In this document: one piece after another, positions 55,400-64,000 of the stretch
How the letters are laid out: each line of letters begins with the position of its first letter
Position numbering within the stretch: position 1 is the stretch's first letter
Origin: a virus
Reading direction: 5' to 3' (one strand)
IMG/VR virus record: IMGVR_UViG_3300042905_002966
Location: 39,631 to 103,630 of that record
DNA length: 64,000 nucleotides
Made by a program: the position numbers and the translations under genes
The notes under the pieces: generated by a model
The model's database searches: none
Told to the model about the DNA's origin: nothing
Seen by the model: only the letters and a program-made list of their open reading frames with translations

Positions 55400-56329
55400 T
55401 TAAAATACCTCATCAAGAGTCCAATCTATATTTCTTGCTGGAAAGCCATCAACATCACTAAACACCCATGATCCACTAGAGCCTAACATATCACGGGCTA
55501 CAGATTCTCTAATCCAAAAACTTCCATCTGGTTGATCGTGTCGTTTTGGGCCATTATTCCAAACTCCCCAACTATTTTGAACCAAGAAAAGAGTTTCATT
55601 ATATATTTCATGGGTATCATCTGCGGCTATCCAAGCCATAGCGTGCGCCCAAGATCCAGATGGGGCGGCTATACCATACTTATCTCTACGAGAACTGAAT
55701 CCAAACATTGAACATACGCTTATGCCATATCCATTTGCCAGAGCGTCTCTGGCCTCTTCTACGGTTGTTATTAAACTGGCTGTTCTTACTGGCCTCTTTT
55801 GTGCTTCTTCTATAAGCGTCTTAGGTGGCCCGCTTCGTCCCCAAGACGATGCAAGTTTACCTTGATATGATGTTAAATCAATATTGTCATATTTTTGTCT
55901 AATTAATACACCACCAGTTTGTTTGACAAATCTTGCCGCACCAGAACATGTCATGCCTTCACCACCGTGTCCGCGTGAACCATATATGCCTTCTGTAGCA
56001 CCGCGAGCAACAAACTCTTCATTTTCTCCATTGATAATTTCACAGCTTCTAGTGATATCTATTGCATTACGAGTAGAGTGTGAGACACAATCACCAACTA
56101 CTTGTCTTTCTGAAGGACCAAAATTAGGATCGAATTTTAATAGATTTTTAAATGGAAGAGATAATTTTCCTTTTCCTGTTCCATATAATTTATATGCAGC
56201 AGCACCGAATAATGGATGTCTTAATTCACCCAATAATTTATCAGTATCTTCTGGATCACAAATGCTACCGACGAATCCATCCTTGTACGTCTTTAGAATT
56301 TTTGATGGAGTACTAAAGTCGAGTTGCAT
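55400..56329 (-). CDS. Papain-like (C1-type) cysteine peptidase
   Basis: A 309-residue protein with the papain triad in order: 'RQVVGDCVSHSTRNAI' (Cys81, with Gln76 as possible oxyanion residue), 'SGSWAHAMAWIAAD' (His229) and 'LFLVQNSWGVW' (Asn252). No signal peptide or propeptide-like inhibitor is visible. In phages such enzymes act as virion maturation proteases, as tail-borne peptidases, or occasionally as lysins. Followed within 2 nt by an exported protein and then by holin-like genes, a lysis-linked role is possible. Catalytic assignment is firm, substrate unknown. Confidence 0.8.
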   Translation of the reverse strand: MQLDFSTPSKILKTYKDGFVGSICDPEDTDKLLGELRHPLFGAAAYKLYGTGKGKLSLPFKNLLKFDPNFGPSERQVVGDCVSHSTRNAIDITRSCEIINGENEEFVARGATEGIYGSRGHGGEGMTCSGAARFVKQTGGVLIRQKYDNIDLTSYQGKLASSWGRSGPPKTLIEEAQKRPVRTASLITTVEEARDALANGYGISVCSMFGFSSRRDKYGIAAPSGSWAHAMAWIAADDTHEIYNETLFLVQNSWGVWNNGPKRHDQPDGSFWIRESVARDMLGSSGSWVFSDVDGFPARNIDWTLDEVF

Positions 56330-57386
56330 TTAATATTCCTTTAGCTGAGTTTTGCCATGAAAATTTTTCTGCTGTCTGAATACCATCTACATTAATATTT
56401 AGTTCACCGTTCTGTTTTTTCTTATGCACCAGCCTCATATGACTTATAGTTTCTTCTTTTTGATTATCAGACAACTCAGCCCAAAAACCACATTTACCAT
56501 CAAAAAATACTCCATCAAACGCTGTCTCTAGATTATCGACATCTATAAGCATGGCATTTTGATTATTGCAAAACTCTGTATGTGCAGAATAGTTGGTAGT
56601 AATTACATGTTTTCCGCATGACATCATTTCAAGTAACTCTAAATTCCACCCTTCAGCCCTAGATGGAAATATTCCACAATCTGAGAGCCTCATAATATTA
56701 TACACATCTTTTTGGGTTTGCTGTCTAGGTATTATCCTTATTTTTTCACCCAGCTGTGAGTTTTTATATAGGCTTTTCCATTCATTATTTTGTTCGCCTA
56801 TAAAAGGATTATCGCATAACATCCATAGTTCTACATCGTCATGATAGGTAAATGCCCTATTAAAACACTCAACAATAATATCGTGACCTTTTCTAATTTC
56901 CCATTTTCCACAATTGAGAAAGACTGTAGTTGACCTTTTATTTGGCAGTGTACATGGCCTAAATACAGTAGCATCTACACCAAGCGGAATTACATGAATG
57001 TCTGATTGATCAAATTTATTCACATTATTCATTACGACTTCTTTTGCCCAGTTAGAACATACCATAATTTTATCACAATGAGATAAACTGACTATTTCAT
57101 GAGAATTAAATTTGGTTAATTCAAATATTGGAAAACCAAAATATGTACCATTACCAACTTTGGTCTGTAAATCATGTTGATGCCATAATTTTATACACGG
57201 TCTATGTTTATCAAAATAAAGTTGATTATTAATACTTATAGATATAATATGGGTATCATCCATATTTTCTGGTCTTGAAATTGGATATAATGCAATTGTA
57301 TTATCTATTTGATATAATTCTTTCAGTAGATTATATCCAGCTATACCATAGCCGAGATTATTAATTGGAGCTATAAAATTTATCAT
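56313..57386 (-). CDS. GT4-type glycosyltransferase
   Basis: A 357-residue GT-B enzyme. 'INNLGYGIAGYNLLKEL' opens the acceptor domain, 'IHVIPLGVDATVFRP' is the hinge, and 'LNCGKWEIRKGHDIIVECFN' starts the donor domain. 'PSRAEGWNLELLEMMSCGKH' (241-260) contains E-x7-E (Glu245, Glu253). All key elements are intact, so it is probably active. It overlaps the nucleotidyltransferase gene upstream by 26 nt, suggesting that the pair supplies and uses the same sugar. Confidence 0.82.
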   Translation of the reverse strand: MINFIAPINNLGYGIAGYNLLKELYQIDNTIALYPISRPENMDDTHIISISINNQLYFDKHRPCIKLWHQHDLQTKVGNGTYFGFPIFELTKFNSHEIVSLSHCDKIMVCSNWAKEVVMNNVNKFDQSDIHVIPLGVDATVFRPCTLPNKRSTTVFLNCGKWEIRKGHDIIVECFNRAFTYHDDVELWMLCDNPFIGEQNNEWKSLYKNSQLGEKIRIIPRQQTQKDVYNIMRLSDCGIFPSRAEGWNLELLEMMSCGKHVITTNYSAHTEFCNNQNAMLIDVDNLETAFDGVFFDGKCGFWAELSDNQKEETISHMRLVHKKKQNGELNINVDGIQTAEKFSWQNSAKGILNATRL

Positions 57387-58194
57387 TGAATATTTTCTTC
57401 CAATAGTTATATACCATAATTAAATCTTCATCTTGATGTATATTAGACTTTACTATGATATCATTCCACGCATTTATTAATTCTACATCTCTTGGTGTGC
57501 CAAGACATATATATTGTTCTGTTTCATACATCAATATCTTTAGATTGTCGTTAATAATTAAATTATATGGCATTGTTACATAAAATTCATTATTGACTCT
57601 GTTGCCAGATTCTATCAATTTTCTAAAATAATGATTCATCATTTGGAATGATTTGAAATAATATATTCCATTAGATGCGTGTTCAAATATTGGATGTGCT
57701 GTAAAACATCCTTTTTCTTTAATTTCTAATACATTATTATTGCTATCATGTCTAACATGTGCAAAATTAGTATTGTAAAATTTATGCGGATGTAATCCAC
57801 AGTGTGTCAATATACATCCATCAGCATTATTTGTATGAACATATGAAATTAGTTTGTCTAAATTAAAGATACTTACTAGATCACAATAGCTTACAATAAT
57901 TTCTTCTTCTGGATTGATATCTAAATTTGCCGATAATATTGATACAACTGGACCATCTGAATTTGGCGATATTGGATTAATATTTATTTTTGGAAATAGT
58001 TTTTGTAGAATTCTATTACTAGCAACATTACAATTTTTTGTGATCAAATATATATTATCATGTGAGATGCCATCAAACATATTGATTACATGTTCAATCA
58101 TGTATTTATTTACAACTTTTATGAATGATTTTTCTGGATATCCATTTTTAGTAAATCTTTCACTTTTACCAGACAGTGTTATTATTATTTTCAT
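57361..58194 (-). CDS. Sugar-phosphate nucleotidyltransferase
   Basis: The start at ATG 58194 (277 aa), preceded by AGGCG, gives the typical N terminus 'MKIIITLSGKSERF'. 'YPEKSFIKVVNKYMIEHVIN' holds the conserved Lys and the substrate loop. 'EEIIVSYCDLVSIFNL' has the metal-binding Asp, and 'NNEFYVTMPYNLII' and 'GTPRDVELINAW' close the family motif set. It would form an NDP-sugar for the adjacent GT4. Better conserved than the relative at 25232-25954. Confidence 0.78.
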   Translation of the reverse strand: MKIIITLSGKSERFTKNGYPEKSFIKVVNKYMIEHVINMFDGISHDNIYLITKNCNVASNRILQKLFPKININPISPNSDGPVVSILSANLDINPEEEIIVSYCDLVSIFNLDKLISYVHTNNADGCILTHCGLHPHKFYNTNFAHVRHDSNNNVLEIKEKGCFTAHPIFEHASNGIYYFKSFQMMNHYFRKLIESGNRVNNEFYVTMPYNLIINDNLKILMYETEQYICLGTPRDVELINAWNDIIVKSNIHQDEDLIMVYNYWKKIFNDKFYSSN

Positions 58195-59017
58195 TTTTTC
58201 GCCTATAAAATTCTGGTATATGTTTTTTGCTCTCACCCCAAAAATGTATAAATATCGCATTCTTATATTTGTCTACAGTTTCATCTATGGAGAGATTATC
58301 AAATGACTCTTCATAAAATTGTGCTGGGGCATATGGACCTGTTTTTCTAGCCCCCCAAAACTCCTTAATGTTTAGATTTAAATTTTTCTTTTTACATATG
58401 TAATACACTAATTCTAAAATAGTTTCCTCAATGCATTTTGTTTCTATTTTGATATTTAATATATCAAGATGTTCTAGCAATATTTGCTTAAACGACATAG
58501 CTGATTGTTTGTTTGCAAAAATTAGAGACGCATTAGATAATGTGTAAAATTCTTCATCTTGCGATAAATTGATTTTAGATATGAGGTATTTTAGCCATTC
58601 GATTTTTGTATTTGCCCAACCAATCTTGTCTTCTTGTGTTGGTTTTTTATTTGACCAGCAATAAACGTGATTATTATCAATGTTAAGTATATCAAAGATA
58701 TTAATATTATCTAAGTTAATAGCCATATCTAAATGTAACCAATAAAAATTGTCATAACCAGAATCACAAAAATCCAATATTGCAGCTATTGCACTTAATG
58801 TATATACACTGTAATCTTTACAAGAAGGTTTTTTATCTGTCTGAAAATTATTGAGTATAATTTGCATGAATTTATTTTTTTCATCTATTACATTAAAAGC
58901 AAGTCCATGTTTCTTGCAATATTCTATCATCTTATTTTTTTGCAAGTTAACCCAATCTATATTTTCTTTATTATTCAATACTCCAAATCCATATGATGTA
59001 TATATTGAGTTTTTCAT
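58166..59017 (-). CDS. Probable GT-A-like glycosyltransferase
   Basis: The start at ATG 59017 (283 aa) forms an ATGA overlap with the sulfotransferase stop. 'SIYTSYGFGVLNNKENIDWV' and 'FYWLHLDMAINLDNINIF' match the nucleotide-sugar transferase pattern, with LDMA in the DxD position. 'EFWGARKTGPYAPAQFYEES' is Pro/Gly-rich and near the usual acceptor loop. The end, 'NAIFIHFWGESK', resembles the C-terminal motif of galactosyltransferase-like proteins. Family uncertain; activity likely but not certain. Confidence 0.52.
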   Translation of the reverse strand: MKNSIYTSYGFGVLNNKENIDWVNLQKNKMIEYCKKHGLAFNVIDEKNKFMQIILNNFQTDKKPSCKDYSVYTLSAIAAILDFCDSGYDNFYWLHLDMAINLDNINIFDILNIDNNHVYCWSNKKPTQEDKIGWANTKIEWLKYLISKINLSQDEEFYTLSNASLIFANKQSAMSFKQILLEHLDILNIKIETKCIEETILELVYYICKKKNLNLNIKEFWGARKTGPYAPAQFYEESFDNLSIDETVDKYKNAIFIHFWGESKKHIPEFYRRKNENNNNTVW

Positions 59018-59742
59018 TTTGATAAACACTCATTTTCATTTAAACATTTATGCCAATTCATCACTTCATCCAGATTTGGTATAATTTTTTTATATGTATC
59101 ATAATTATTTAATTTATTTGATGCGTCCATCAGCGATAAACTGTCAATATTTTTTGCTTGCAAATTCAAAAAATGCATTATTTTATCTAGTTCTAGTGAT
59201 TGATTTTCAGAATATAAATCCTCATATTTCACTATTAAGGTTTTATTGCTATGATAAAATTTTACATAATTGTAATAACATTGAATATTTTTTATGAAAT
59301 CAAAATAACAGACAGCAAATTCTTTTAAGTCGATTGGTGGTCTTACTTCAGAATAAAAATCATTTAATAAAGACTGAGCTACATCATTTTGAAAACTATT
59401 TTTTAGTCTATGCTTTTCGTATATTTTATAGTCTCCAGAATAGGTCATCGATACAATATTAGATAGCATAGTATCCAAGACACTTTCTCTATATAAAAAA
59501 ATAATCTTTTCAGCCACATCTATTATTTCAAAATTATCTAATATATCTAGAGGCCAGCCTAATATTTTTATAATATCATATGTTTGTATTTCTTCGAACT
59601 TATCTTTTAATGTTACTTGTCTATTTTCATTGCACTCTGGATTATATGGTTCCACAGACAAAGTACTTTCAGATGAATATGCTATATACTCACATAAAGC
59701 TGTTGAACCAGATCTTGGAACTGGTGAAAAAATTAACTTCAT
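59014..59742 (-). CDS. Sulfotransferase-family protein
   Basis: A 242-residue protein. 'FSPVPRSGSTALCEYI' is the 5'-phosphosulfate-binding loop (PRSGST at 9-14) and 'EKIIFLYRESVLDTMLS' (79-94) the 3'-phosphate-binding segment with Arg85 and Ser94. 'KTLIVKYEDLYSENQSLELD' corresponds to the third conserved region. It would transfer sulfate from PAPS, most likely to a carbohydrate, since it is framed by glycosyltransferase genes. No PAPS-synthesis gene is visible, so the donor would come from the host. Confidence 0.78.
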   Translation of the reverse strand: MKLIFSPVPRSGSTALCEYIAYSSESTLSVEPYNPECNENRQVTLKDKFEEIQTYDIIKILGWPLDILDNFEIIDVAEKIIFLYRESVLDTMLSNIVSMTYSGDYKIYEKHRLKNSFQNDVAQSLLNDFYSEVRPPIDLKEFAVCYFDFIKNIQCYYNYVKFYHSNKTLIVKYEDLYSENQSLELDKIMHFLNLQAKNIDSLSLMDASNKLNNYDTYKKIIPNLDEVMNWHKCLNENECLSK

Positions 59743-60704
59743 AATATATTCTCTAACTTTTTCTTAAAATCATTGACAAAATATCTGCCACTTAAAAAGT
59801 ATTTAGGCATATTTTTTAGATATTCATGGGCTTCGATGATTAAATCTGTGTTTCTTATTTTTGATTCAGCCTCAGAAAGATTATCAAAGTATAATGGATA
59901 ATCAGCACCAAGATATTCAACTACTGCTGGTAATTTATTTACTATTATTGGTGTATTTCTAGACATAGATTCTATGATCGCATTATTAGCAGAACTATCA
60001 TATAGATCCAAAAATACTACACCCCTAGTTAATAGTTCATCAAATTGATCGGCTTCTAGAAATTTTAACATTGATACTCCAGCCCACATATATCTAGATT
60101 GATGGGCGTCTGGATTTGTTTTGTTGTATACATCGAGCATAGTTAAAGTATAATCATACGAACTAGGAAGCCAGATTTTTGTATAATCTGTTCCTATATT
60201 TAATTTATGTAGTGAATCTAATTTTCTTAACCAATATCCTAGTTGTATTACTGGCTTGCAACGCTGGTGTATAAATTTATCTGGACACCATTTTAACTTT
60301 GGAATCTGTGTTGGATGCTTAAGATCTATTATTGGAACATCAACACGCGACGAAAGCCATTCTTTCAAATACTTAGATAGTACAATTAAAAGCTTACATG
60401 TTTTTAAAGATTCTTGAAAAATTGGACGACTCAATATAGCATTTGGGGAATCAAAATAATTAAACCAATTTGGCATATTTGGCGGGTTATGCAAAAAACC
60501 TATCCATTTATGCTTATATGGTATTTTATGAATACTTTTTCCACGAAAATGATCGTATAAATACCAAGAAAAAGATCTTTCAATAAAGTCATCACAAAAA
60601 ATACCACTACGTGAGTGTAGTGTTTTTAATTGGCTTAAACAAAACTGCCATCCAGATCTATGATGTATAAATCCAGATGACTTAGATAAATCAATTGTAA
60701 TCAT
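59739..60704 (-). CDS. GT-B-type glycosyltransferase
   Basis: A 321-residue protein. 'WIGFLHNPPNMPNWFNY' and 'KLLIVLSKYLKEWL' form the first Rossmann domain, and 'PVIQLGYWLRKLDSLHKL' begins the second. 'DLYDSSANNAIIESMSRNTP' and 'IIVNKLPAVVEYLG' form the donor site: the Asn-Asn-x-x-x-Glu helix stands where GT4 has E-x7-E. Similar proteins occur in phage glycan clusters. It overlaps the genes on both sides by 4 nt. Specificity unknown. Confidence 0.65.
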   Translation of the reverse strand: MITIDLSKSSGFIHHRSGWQFCLSQLKTLHSRSGIFCDDFIERSFSWYLYDHFRGKSIHKIPYKHKWIGFLHNPPNMPNWFNYFDSPNAILSRPIFQESLKTCKLLIVLSKYLKEWLSSRVDVPIIDLKHPTQIPKLKWCPDKFIHQRCKPVIQLGYWLRKLDSLHKLNIGTDYTKIWLPSSYDYTLTMLDVYNKTNPDAHQSRYMWAGVSMLKFLEADQFDELLTRGVVFLDLYDSSANNAIIESMSRNTPIIVNKLPAVVEYLGADYPLYFDNLSEAESKIRNTDLIIEAHEYLKNMPKYFLSGRYFVNDFKKKLENIL

Positions 60705-61564
60705 ATCAGTTTTCTAGATAGCATCCCCTCATAAAATCCTATTTGATATTTACACTTACATATAACCAAATTTTCCAAATAATCACCATCCATGTCTGGA
60801 TTTGAATCTAATAGCCATCTTGGCATTTCATTATCTAGCATTTCTGGAGACTCTACAAATCTATGCCACAATTCTTTTCTTTTTTCATCTAAGTTTTTAT
60901 TGCTGACTAATAATCCATCTTGGTATCCAGAATCATAATAAAAATCAGATATCTTTTCCATTGAAAAATCTATTTCATCTAGATATTTTATTTTACTCAG
61001 TGTACTACAATAATAAACACGATATCTATTAGCCATTTGTGCTATAAATAATTTATTACTTATATTTTTATGTCTATATGAAATTACTGGCCTATAGGAA
61101 AAATCATTATAGGCTCTTCCAGATATGGCACAGTATAATAAATCTGGATATAGATGTATTTCTTCAGTAAGATCTGATATAACATTATGACCATTATCAA
61201 GATTATATCTTTGATATTTTTGATTTATCTTATGGATACCATTATTAAGTGAGGCGTGTGTATGTGTATTAGTTGGGCCACAGAATATACCACCATCTCT
61301 TAATAAATTATTAATAGAAATGATCTTATTTAAGTAATCATCTTCTACATAAAATGTATTATCAACTATAATAACAATACTAGATTTTACTTGGCTAGGT
61401 AAATCATCAATACTTATTTTATGTATTTGAGCAGATAATTCGTAATATGATATTTCGTGTTTAAAACTATCAATAGCTAATTTATATTGTTTATTATTTA
61501 GTACTAGTTGTTTTGGTTGATTATTTTTCTTGGTTTCATTGATAGCAAAGATTTCAATATCCAA
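60701..61564 (-). CDS. Hypothetical protein of the second glycan block
   Basis: A 287-residue protein. 'VIIVDNTFYVEDDYLNKIIS' and 'GGIFCGPTNTHTHASL' could be a GT-A-like core with an EDD acidic motif. 'DFYYDSGYQDGLLVSNK' and 'LENLVICKCKYQIGFYEGML' are conserved-looking but unassigned. It is coupled to a GT-B gene and follows an exported thioredoxin. A transferase role is plausible, not shown. Confidence 0.45.
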   Translation of the reverse strand: MDIEIFAINETKKNNQPKQLVLNNKQYKLAIDSFKHEISYYELSAQIHKISIDDLPSQVKSSIVIIVDNTFYVEDDYLNKIISINNLLRDGGIFCGPTNTHTHASLNNGIHKINQKYQRYNLDNGHNVISDLTEEIHLYPDLLYCAISGRAYNDFSYRPVISYRHKNISNKLFIAQMANRYRVYYCSTLSKIKYLDEIDFSMEKISDFYYDSGYQDGLLVSNKNLDEKRKELWHRFVESPEMLDNEMPRWLLDSNPDMDGDYLENLVICKCKYQIGFYEGMLSRKLI

Positions 61565-61575
61565 TTTATTTTCCC

Positions 61576-61911
61576 TTATTTCATTAATTTTTTTAGTCTG
61601 TTCTGATAAGAATTGTCGTATCCAGTTATTCTTGCTACTTCTAAAGAATCATCATTTAGAATGATAGTAGTTGGCACAACTCTAATTTTAAAATGTTTTT
61701 TTAGATCTGGTGATTCATCTATATCGATAATCACAATATTGTATATGTCATGTAGATCTGTATTATCATCTAGAAATTTTTTTAAATTAACACAGGAAGG
61801 ACACCATTTGGCACTAAAAATATATAAATCATCCGCAATACAATATTTTGATGTCAAGCCAGCAAATACTAATATACAAAGAAAAGTATTTAAGAATCTA
61901 ACAAGTGTCAT
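61576..61911 (-). CDS. Exported thioredoxin-like protein
   Basis: A 111-residue protein. An N-terminal signal peptide ('VRFLNTFLCILVFAGLTSKY') is followed by a single thioredoxin fold: 'IFSAKWCPSCVNLKKFL' has the C-x-x-C redox site (CPSC), 'IVIIDIDESPDLKKHF' a middle strand, and 'RVVPTTIIL' the cis-Pro loop. It probably acts on disulfides outside the cytoplasm. It overlaps the DUF1501 gene by 4 nt, so the two exported proteins are co-translated. Confidence 0.82.
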   Translation of the reverse strand: MTLVRFLNTFLCILVFAGLTSKYCIADDLYIFSAKWCPSCVNLKKFLDDNTDLHDIYNIVIIDIDESPDLKKHFKIRVVPTTIILNDDSLEVARITGYDNSYQNRLKKLMK

Positions 61912-63179
61912 ACAATTATTTCTAATATTGGTTTTCCGCCATCTACTATTTTTACAGGTCTATTGCCGGGAGCCATAATATGTTTTTCTGGATTAATACC
62001 AAGTAGTGTATATATAGTCGAGGCCCAATCTTCTACTGACACAGGATTATCTAGTGGATCAGTGGCCGTATCATTGCTAGATCCATATACTATTCCAGAT
62101 TTTATACCGCCACCAGCCATTATTCCACTATATAGCTTGGGCCAATGATCTCTTCCGGCAGTTGGATTTATTTTTGGTGTTCTTCCAAACTCTGTTCCAA
62201 CTACTACCAATGTAGATTCTAATAATCCTCTTGATTCTAAATCAAGTATTAAACTTGAAAATGCTTTATCAAAAGGTGGTAATTGAGTTTGCATATTAGT
62301 AGCAATATTATCATGATGATCCCATCCACCATATGTCATTGTTATAAATCTTACTCCAGCTTCTACTAGCCTTCTTGATAATAACATCCTCATGCCAGCA
62401 GAATTCTTGCCATATGTTTCTTTTGTTTCATCTTTTTCTAATGATAAATCAAATGCCTCTATAGCCGCATTAGAATCCATTAGCTCAAAAGCATTTTCAT
62501 AAAATGAATTCATGGCAACTAAAGCATCAGATTTTTGTGTTGCATCAAAATTTTTATTGACGACCTCCAACATTTTTTTTCTTTTATCAAATCTTTGTAT
62601 CGATATTCCTTCTGGCAATCTTAGATCTCTTACTTTAAAATTGGGATCTTCTGGATTTCCACCAAGACTAAAAGAAGAATATGAATGACTTAAATAACCG
62701 GCACCAGCGAATTCATTAGGTACATTTGGTACTGTAATATAGGGTGGTAGATTGTTTTTTCCACCTAATTCATGACCCACTATAGAACCAATACTGGGGT
62801 ATTGTATTGCTGGCGATGGTCGCCATCCGGTAAACATATTGTGTGTTCCACGTTCATGTGCTGCCTCATTATGGTTCATAGATCGTATTACTGTTATCTT
62901 ATCTGCAATCTTGGCAGTATCTTTCAATAATTCGCTAAATTTAATTCCAGTAATTGAAGTATCTATTGATGATAGTGGCCCCCTGTATTCTGCTGGGGCA
63001 AATGGTTTAGGATCAAATGTTTCTTGGGTAGAAAATCCACCGGGTAAATATATGTAAATTACAGATTTTGCTTTTGCTTCTGTAGCAATGTTATCATCTG
63101 CAATTAACATTGAATAATTAGTATTATTAATACCAATACAACTCAATGCGCCAAGCTGTAATATATTTCTTCTATTCAT
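61908..63179 (-). CDS. DUF1501 family protein with Tat-type leader
   Basis: A 423-residue, apparently complete protein. The N terminus 'MNRRNILQLGALSCIG' is a short twin-arginine signal. The body has 'GGFSTQETFDPKP', 'SMNHNEAAHERGTHNMFTGW', 'TMTYGGWDHHDN', 'VVGTEFGRTP' and 'GRDHWPKLYSGIMAGGGIK', then 'SVEDWASTIYTLLGI'. These metal-binding His/Asp motifs define DUF1501, an alkaline-phosphatase/sulfatase-superfamily relative very abundant in Planctomycetes and rarely reported in phages. Its biochemical activity is not established. It may modify or remove phosphate or sulfate groups in the envelope. Host acquisition is inferred. Confidence 0.88.
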   Translation of the reverse strand: MNRRNILQLGALSCIGINNTNYSMLIADDNIATEAKAKSVIYIYLPGGFSTQETFDPKPFAPAEYRGPLSSIDTSITGIKFSELLKDTAKIADKITVIRSMNHNEAAHERGTHNMFTGWRPSPAIQYPSIGSIVGHELGGKNNLPPYITVPNVPNEFAGAGYLSHSYSSFSLGGNPEDPNFKVRDLRLPEGISIQRFDKRKKMLEVVNKNFDATQKSDALVAMNSFYENAFELMDSNAAIEAFDLSLEKDETKETYGKNSAGMRMLLSRRLVEAGVRFITMTYGGWDHHDNIATNMQTQLPPFDKAFSSLILDLESRGLLESTLVVVGTEFGRTPKINPTAGRDHWPKLYSGIMAGGGIKSGIVYGSSNDTATDPLDNPVSVEDWASTIYTLLGINPEKHIMAPGNRPVKIVDGGKPILEIIV

Positions 63180-64000
63180 TTTTTAGTTTGATTATATTTA
63201 GAGCGGAATTAAATATGTTTTCTATAGAGCTTTCTGGTATTCTTGATTTAAAATATGAGAAAATTTGTTTTATCATTTCATGATCTGGATCTTGAGTTAA
63301 TTCTAGCCATCCAACAAAATAATTCCATATCCTATCTTCAAGTATTAATGGATATTTTACACCAAGCGGTCTTCCAAATCTATGTACCCATCCAAGTTGT
63401 GGCAAGCATATATTTTTGCCACCATTTCTTCTAAATTTTTCTGCTATATATCCTTCTTCTCCACCAAATCCTTTAAAGTGTTCACATATTCCCGGCCAGT
63501 TTTTCTTTTCAAAAGAACACAAACCCATACCATGCATTAGTATCTCAAATGGTTTATTAGATTTATATTTTTCATGATCAGTAGCCCATGTTCCGTACAT
63601 ATCTCCGCTCCAATTGGGATCAAAATGAGTAGAAAAATTTTTTAGATCATCATAAATCAACGGTCCCTGTATCAAGTTCTTACAATCCTTATTTTCTGCA
63701 TAATAATTTAATAACGAATTAATAGCGCCTTTAACTAATAAAACATGACAATCAATAATAAGAACATATTTTCCAATAGCATGTTTTACTATTTCATATT
63801 TGTTAAAACTAGAACTTTTATCTTCTTTTGGTATGTATTTACCAAGTTGATTTAATCCGTTTTCAACAAATTTTTTTGTAACTTTTCCGCTTTCGCTATT
63901 TGGATTATTATCTAAAACAATATATTCTACAGAATCTGTGTTACAGATTTCATGATACATTCTTAAACTTTGTATTGTAAAAAATACTCCATCATAATCA
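63172..64000 (-). CDS. GT2 glycosyltransferase, 5' end cut by window edge
   Basis: The frame stays open to the last base; residues upstream of the Met at 63960 read 'YDGVFFTIQSLR', part of the usual GT2 start, so the true start is outside the window. 'EYIVLDNNPNSESGK' is the first acidic motif and 'YVLIIDCHVLLVKGAINSLL' the DxD-equivalent (D-C-H). 'GMGLCSFEKKNWPGI' plus 'GFGGEEGYIAEKFRRNG' matches the polypeptide-GalNAc/galactosyltransferase-like catalytic region. It overlaps the DUF1501 gene by 8 nt. Confidence 0.8.
   Translation of the reverse strand, partial: DYDGVFFTIQSLRMYHEICNTDSVEYIVLDNNPNSESGKVTKKFVENGLNQLGKYIPKEDKSSSFNKYEIVKHAIGKYVLIIDCHVLLVKGAINSLLNYYAENKDCKNLIQGPLIYDDLKNFSTHFDPNWSGDMYGTWATDHEKYKSNKPFEILMHGMGLCSFEKKNWPGICEHFKGFGGEEGYIAEKFRRNGGKNICLPQLGWVHRFGRPLGVKYPLILEDRIWNYFVGWLELTQDPDHEMIKQIFSYFKSRIPESSIENIFNSALNIIKLKNE

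Follow-up and report, generated by a model that had tools for sequence, protein, structure and literature searches.

DUF1501 genes from different planctomycete subfamilies in tailed phages, one of them overlapping an exported thioredoxin gene

The window analyzed here, a stretch of 64,000 nt, comprises the right-hand end, bases 39631–103630, of a virus record 103,630 nt long (IMGVR_UViG_3300042905_002966). Near its right end, on the minus strand, lies a gene for a 423-amino-acid DUF1501 protein (61908..63179), which we assign to group alpha, followed by a gene for an exported thioredoxin-like protein of 111 amino acids (61576..61911), with the stop of the former and the start of the latter sharing 4 nt as ATGA. 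The DUF1501 protein matches PF07394 at 1.8e-109 and 366.9 bits (cut-off 27), its residues 37–422 covering the profile from 1 to 390 of 390. Its N-terminus, MNRRNILQLGAL, encoded from position 63179 downwards, opens with the Tat leader MNRRNIL, in which NRRNIL is the Tat motif. The thioredoxin-like protein matches Thioredoxin_2 (8.1e-10) and Pfam Thioredoxin (9e-9, above the cut-off), and its CXXC is present as WCPSC at residues 36–40, behind a hydrophobic N-terminus. These ORFs and their Pfam matches bear out an earlier, sequence-only reading of the locus, namely that a complete twin-arginine DUF1501 protein overlaps a signal-peptide thioredoxin by 4 nt. The Tat motif of one product and the hydrophobic N-terminus of the other, with signal peptides assigned from motif and hydropathy only, agree with its proposal that both are exported.

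The pair is part of a longer run of minus-strand genes. Upstream, a glycosyltransferase of family 2 (63172..63999; PF00535, 5.8e-6) overlaps the DUF1501 gene by 8 nt and is cut by the contig end; it is 289 amino acids long in longer contigs and complete in locus L166. Downstream, the ORF list and Pfam place as the next operon gene a 287-amino-acid protein belonging to no Pfam family (60701..61564), and the same operon continues with a 321-amino-acid protein of no assigned function (59739..60704), a homologue of which adjoins another viral DUF1501 locus, L246. Running on with the operon at 56313–59742 are genes for a sulfotransferase-like protein (59014..59742; PF00685, 3.5e-5), a sugar nucleotidyltransferase-like protein (57361..58260; PF12804, 6.6e-7) and a group 1 glycosyltransferase (56313..57386; PF13692, 2.4e-15), which suggests a surface-polymer cassette. 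Beyond them, at 55400–56329, a 309-amino-acid protein with no Pfam match has, by eye, the look of a papain-type cysteine protease (GDCVSH and NSWG).

The virus record encodes terminase-like and major-head-like genes, as expected for a tailed phage, and the nearest annotated-phage relatives of its terminase are only about 26% identical. Several contigs with a 100% identical DUF1501 protein, one of them 105,195 nt long, extend beyond the window end with the gene order unchanged. In these longer contigs of the window's species, two more DUF1501 genes, beta (414 aa) and A (445 aa), lie shortly beyond the window end and within 12 kb of alpha and share a 4-nt overlap with each other. The sequence-only reading had allowed that the right end might be a mis-assembled bacterial fragment, and more generally the gene could be a host gene carried along passively, or stem from cellular contamination or a chimeric contig. 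The records used here are fragments, none scored complete, and DUF1501 genes are plentiful in the presumed hosts; against this stand identical junctions in several independent contigs, which rule out a chimeric or contaminant contig for the window's species, phage proteins on either side of DUF1501, the phage-like composition of the gene (GC about 0.35 and GC3 about 0.18, matching the AT-rich phage), and the 15-row viral clade and the purifying selection described below. We regard such an origin as scarcely credible, and the assignment of the locus to a phage genome, with the junction recurring inside phage sequence, holds.

Relatives of the window's DUF1501 protein were found at well over 100 IMG/VR loci on contigs of up to 233 kb, forming 54 clusters at 90% identity and seven groups at 50%. 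The IMG/VR scan yielded 31 close viral loci for alpha, 67 beta-like loci on contigs of up to 232,683 nt, 28 A-like loci and three of a further group, gamma. Twenty large viral records carry one to three DUF1501 copies each, and seven of the 20 have a terminase-like ORF of 660–683 aa; shorter terminase-like matches in the large records are probably other ATPases. Of a further 110 loci, which include some redundant ones, 47 have neighbors with homology to other proteins that the window's phage encodes. One locus (L277) has, beside DUF1501, a terminase 64% identical to that of the window's phage, and three others (L239, L284 and L289) have 10–20 proteins in common with it. On contigs sampled by way of an unrelated phage gene, DUF1501 was present on 8 of 16, a count to which fragment bias applies, and was absent, for example, from one of 115,903 nt, indicating that it is common and not universal.

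Several gene arrangements recur around the viral copies. Tandems of DUF1501 genes from different subfamilies with a 4-nt overlap are found at L166:16474-19052, L239:6727-9230, L247:6727-9230 and L023:5881-8447. On its 5' side, viral beta shares 4 nt with the gene for a protein of 627–629 aa that has a membrane segment at the N-terminus and matches VWA weakly (L202:6115-8004 and L205:6121-8004), while in L164 a 624-aa protein lies on the opposite side of its beta gene. Small ORFs that read by eye as zinc-finger or HNH endonuclease-like abut viral DUF1501 or sit between PSD1 and DUF1501 (L204:9245-9592, L205:9245-9589, L208:9245-9598 and L164:7883-8437), and look as if they were homing genes targeting the site. 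Exported trypsin-like or subtilisin-like proteases are encoded near viral DUF1501 in related phages (L008:10605-11366, L018:8067-8999 and L202:9291-10049). In the phage group that includes L013, DUF1501 has a strong rIIA homologue (L013:647-3301; phrog_612, 1.7e-112) a few genes upstream.

Viral DUF1501 is conserved as a phage gene, and purifying selection acts on it. The Tat motif, RR followed by any residue and a hydrophobic one, is present at the N-terminus in all 88 distinct viral copies, and twelve positions (H108, W286, D287, H289, D304, F331, R333, T334, G342, R343, D344 and H345) are invariant among these 88 and nearly invariant among 95 cellular DUF1501 copies. Pairwise dN/dS between phage alpha genes ranges from 0.04 to 0.18, pairs with dS above about 1.5 being saturated and close pairs (dS <0.5) giving 0.04–0.11. 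Together with host origin in the tree, this maintenance under selection makes viral DUF1501 a probable auxiliary (host-derived) gene.

The tree, built by a quick method and containing some long branches, addresses the donor lineage, for which the sequence-only reading had proposed a phylogeny. The 15 viral rows of alpha fall into a single clade (SH-aLRT 97), the A sequences of two phages make up another (100) next to a sequence from a planctomycete, and viral beta groups with host beta. Four to five changes of the viral label are needed, so that several host-to-phage captures are likely. One record in the set (L097) is labelled Klebsiella pneumoniae, probably wrongly, its DUF1501 falling inside Verrucomicrobiota. 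The planctomycete genomes tested contain 24–74 DUF1501 genes each, and each viral paralogue finds its best match in one subfamily: alpha at 64–65% in Planctomycetaceae, with 44–46% for the second-best paralogue of these genomes; A at 61% in one genome and about 50% elsewhere; and beta at 60–66% in nearly every genome of Planctomycetaceae, the other paralogues reaching 42% or less. For beta, 39 of 40 genomes of the family reach the threshold applied, one of the 39 through a 36% paralogue only. In the loci read, host beta adjoins ribosomal-protein and rpoA-type genes. The three viral paralogues tested thus descend from different Planctomycetota subfamilies, the gene in the window is of planctomycete type as first read, and these subfamily-specific matches indicate that the host is probably a planctomycete near Planctomycetaceae. 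The sequence-only reading had named, as an outcome that would speak against it, a family spread widely through unrelated phages with no host link. The family does occur in many phages; the link to planctomycetes is consistent across them, and the gene serves as the host marker it was proposed to be.

To our knowledge, no DUF1501 protein has a known biochemical function, and sequence searches gave no credible solved relatives. The AlphaFold model of the window's DUF1501 protein (pLDDT 79.6, pTM 0.83) has the predicted overall fold of the alkaline phosphatase superfamily, the members of which include ENPP phosphodiesterases, sulfatases and LtaS. Structural matches reach Z values of about 17–19 over some 225–277 residues, among them ENPP6 (Z 18.9, rmsd 2.9 over 240 residues) and sulfatases. 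The canonical active site of this superfamily has two metals, a nucleophile and an Asp-His dyad. Reading the model by strand order, D287/H289 and D344/H345 would fall at the metal site by position, whereas the position of the usual Asp-His dyad reads E330-F331, and with Glu-Phe in this place catalysis cannot be assumed.

In cells, the genes behind alpha commonly encode a PPC-domain protein and a PSCyt2/PSD1 protein, and the gene before beta encodes a PSCyt2/PSD1 protein; the alignment of these PSCyt2/PSD1 partners contains an invariant CXXCH haem motif. The viral copies belong to the same family (PF07394; Planctomycetota and Verrucomicrobiota) as the cellular ones, share the Tat leader and the invariant residues, and are 54–66% identical to the orthologous subfamily. 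They differ in that they reside in tailed phages, are AT-rich, usually have neither the PPC-domain nor the PSCyt2/PSD1 operon partner, and in some cases have an exported thioredoxin behind them. Two phages (G018 and G020) encode PSCyt1/PSCyt2/PSD1 next to DUF1501 gamma; the predicted model of the phage PSCyt/PSD1 protein is poor (pLDDT 59). No PSD1 gene was found in the fragmentary 103–105 kb contigs of the window's species (G000, G002, G003, G015 and G021), where the partner would therefore have to be that of the host. These families are described as uncharacterized and have been tied to PVC cell organization or to redox or carbohydrate metabolism (PMC4452313, PMC2754498, PMC5615132); DUF1501 is reported as a family exported by Tat and, in Proteobacteria, linked to DUF1800 and chitin synthase (PMC5122149). 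The expression 'DUF1501 genomic module' is attributed in PMC4452313 to Kamneva et al. 2012.

An exported or membrane-anchored thioredoxin directly follows DUF1501 in the window's species (4-nt overlap), in L023 (54-nt gap), in L247 (9-nt gap) and in the group of G018, G020 and 3300042521_002419 (180-nt gap or 4-nt overlap). The four thioredoxins are distinct in sequence, being 26–32% identical to that of the window where compared. In L208 a thioredoxin lies 6.3 kb from DUF1501, and most viral DUF1501 loci have no adjacent thioredoxin. A search by the WCXXC pattern, which would miss divergent thioredoxins, gave none adjacent to DUF1501 at 97 cellular loci and one genuine thioredoxin about 2.5 kb away. 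In a rough hand calculation with a chosen chance level of about 1/10, adjacency in four of five cases corresponds to p near 5e-4, and counting five of six lineages gives p = 5.5e-5. The notion that the thioredoxin serves disulfides of its DUF1501 neighbor fails, as the mature DUF1501 protein of the window has no cysteine, implying that the client is something else. With its small exported domain and WCXXC motif, seen in L023 as FxADWCxxC, the thioredoxin resembles ResA, CcmG and DsbD-gamma; we claim likeness only, not family membership, and the proteins described here differ in being phage-encoded and located beside DUF1501.

The pair in the window is real and part of a wider viral habit that was previously undescribed. 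Annotated phage records gave one weak partial match to alpha, none to gamma and no good match for the copies tested, and neither PHROGs nor NCBIfam gave a hit to a DUF1501 model. BFVD lists one viral protein named DUF1501 (UniProt A0A6J5M742, from an uncultured Caudovirales phage), so that at least one occurrence was already deposited; with 489 aa it is only 15% identical to the window's DUF1501 in the structural alignment. The sole phage paper naming DUF1501 concerns a Pseudomonas phage with a weak match of 61 aa, which is not a protein of the window type. The literature searched contained no prior description of multi-copy viral DUF1501 or of the thioredoxin link, and no dedicated report on planctomycete phages. 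Three points had escaped the sequence-only reading: DUF1501 is multi-copy in these phages, its copies trace to several subfamilies of the host, and some of the phages encode PSCyt/PSD1 as well.

Taken together, we assign a probability of about 0.5 to a reading in which the viral DUF1501 proteins are stand-ins for Tat-exported envelope enzymes of the host and, together with a periplasmic thiol reductant, act on the envelope of the planctomycete while it is infected. Tat would carry the DUF1501 protein, already folded, into the host periplasm, where it would work with a PSCyt/PSD1 partner, or displace the host DUF1501 from it, the partner being supplied by the host or, in G018 and G020, by the phage. 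As an outcome, polymers of the surface or the periplasm would be processed differently. The exported thioredoxin would keep periplasmic thiols reduced, most likely the cysteines of the partner's CXXCH for haem attachment. ResA, CcmG and DsbD reduce the CXXCH cysteines needed for haem attachment, and by analogy the partner's CXXCH is the one feature that points to a role in haem maturation. The benefit is the least certain step: a receptor may be masked or rebuilt against superinfection, or an envelope function may be kept running during takeover. An extended version, in which DUF1501 proteins of several subfamilies, the thioredoxin and, in some phages, a c-type PSCyt/PSD1 protein form an exported takeover module that replaces or competes with the host DUF1501–PSCyt system and rewires the planctomycete periplasm, is tentative and falls short of even odds.

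Superinfection exclusion or receptor change might itself be the purpose, with DUF1501 and the neighboring glycosyltransferases, sulfotransferase and nucleotidyltransferase rebuilding a surface polymer to which other phages could then no longer attach. The surface-polymer genes in the DUF1501 gene run and glycosyltransferase-like ORFs beside several other viral DUF1501 genes are in line with this, as is a superfamily that includes polymer sulfatases and phosphodiesterases. However, many large phages encode glycosyltransferases, which could instead act on the virion or DNA, and several viral DUF1501 loci (L239 and L289) lie in blocks of replication genes that contain no sugar genes; we hold this purpose to be less likely than not. 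We consider it rather unlikely that the thioredoxin serves to fold cysteine-bearing exported phage proteins in general, its position reflecting shared timing: related phages do encode an exported trypsin-like protease, a potential client, in the same region, and the L208 thioredoxin is remote from DUF1501, but the thioredoxin stands directly behind DUF1501 in the four sequence-distinct cases. If DUF1501 instead belonged to the virion or tail and broke down surface polymer of the host at entry, the sulfatase- or phosphodiesterase-like fold would fit, yet every copy has a Tat leader, which directs proteins out of the cell, and in many phages DUF1501 is near rIIA, clamp-loader-like and replication genes and not within a tail block, making such a role highly unlikely.

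The reading of viral DUF1501 proteins as stand-ins for host envelope enzymes bears on two highly expanded and poorly understood families of Planctomycetota, DUF1501 and PSCyt/PSD1, both of which earlier work ties to the unusual cell plan of the PVC group. Phages have repeatedly captured particular subfamilies, one of which occurs almost throughout the genomes of the family presumed to contain the host, and this points to the copies that are relevant to the envelope, offering a natural handle on them, while DUF1501 itself gives a marker for planctomycete phages.
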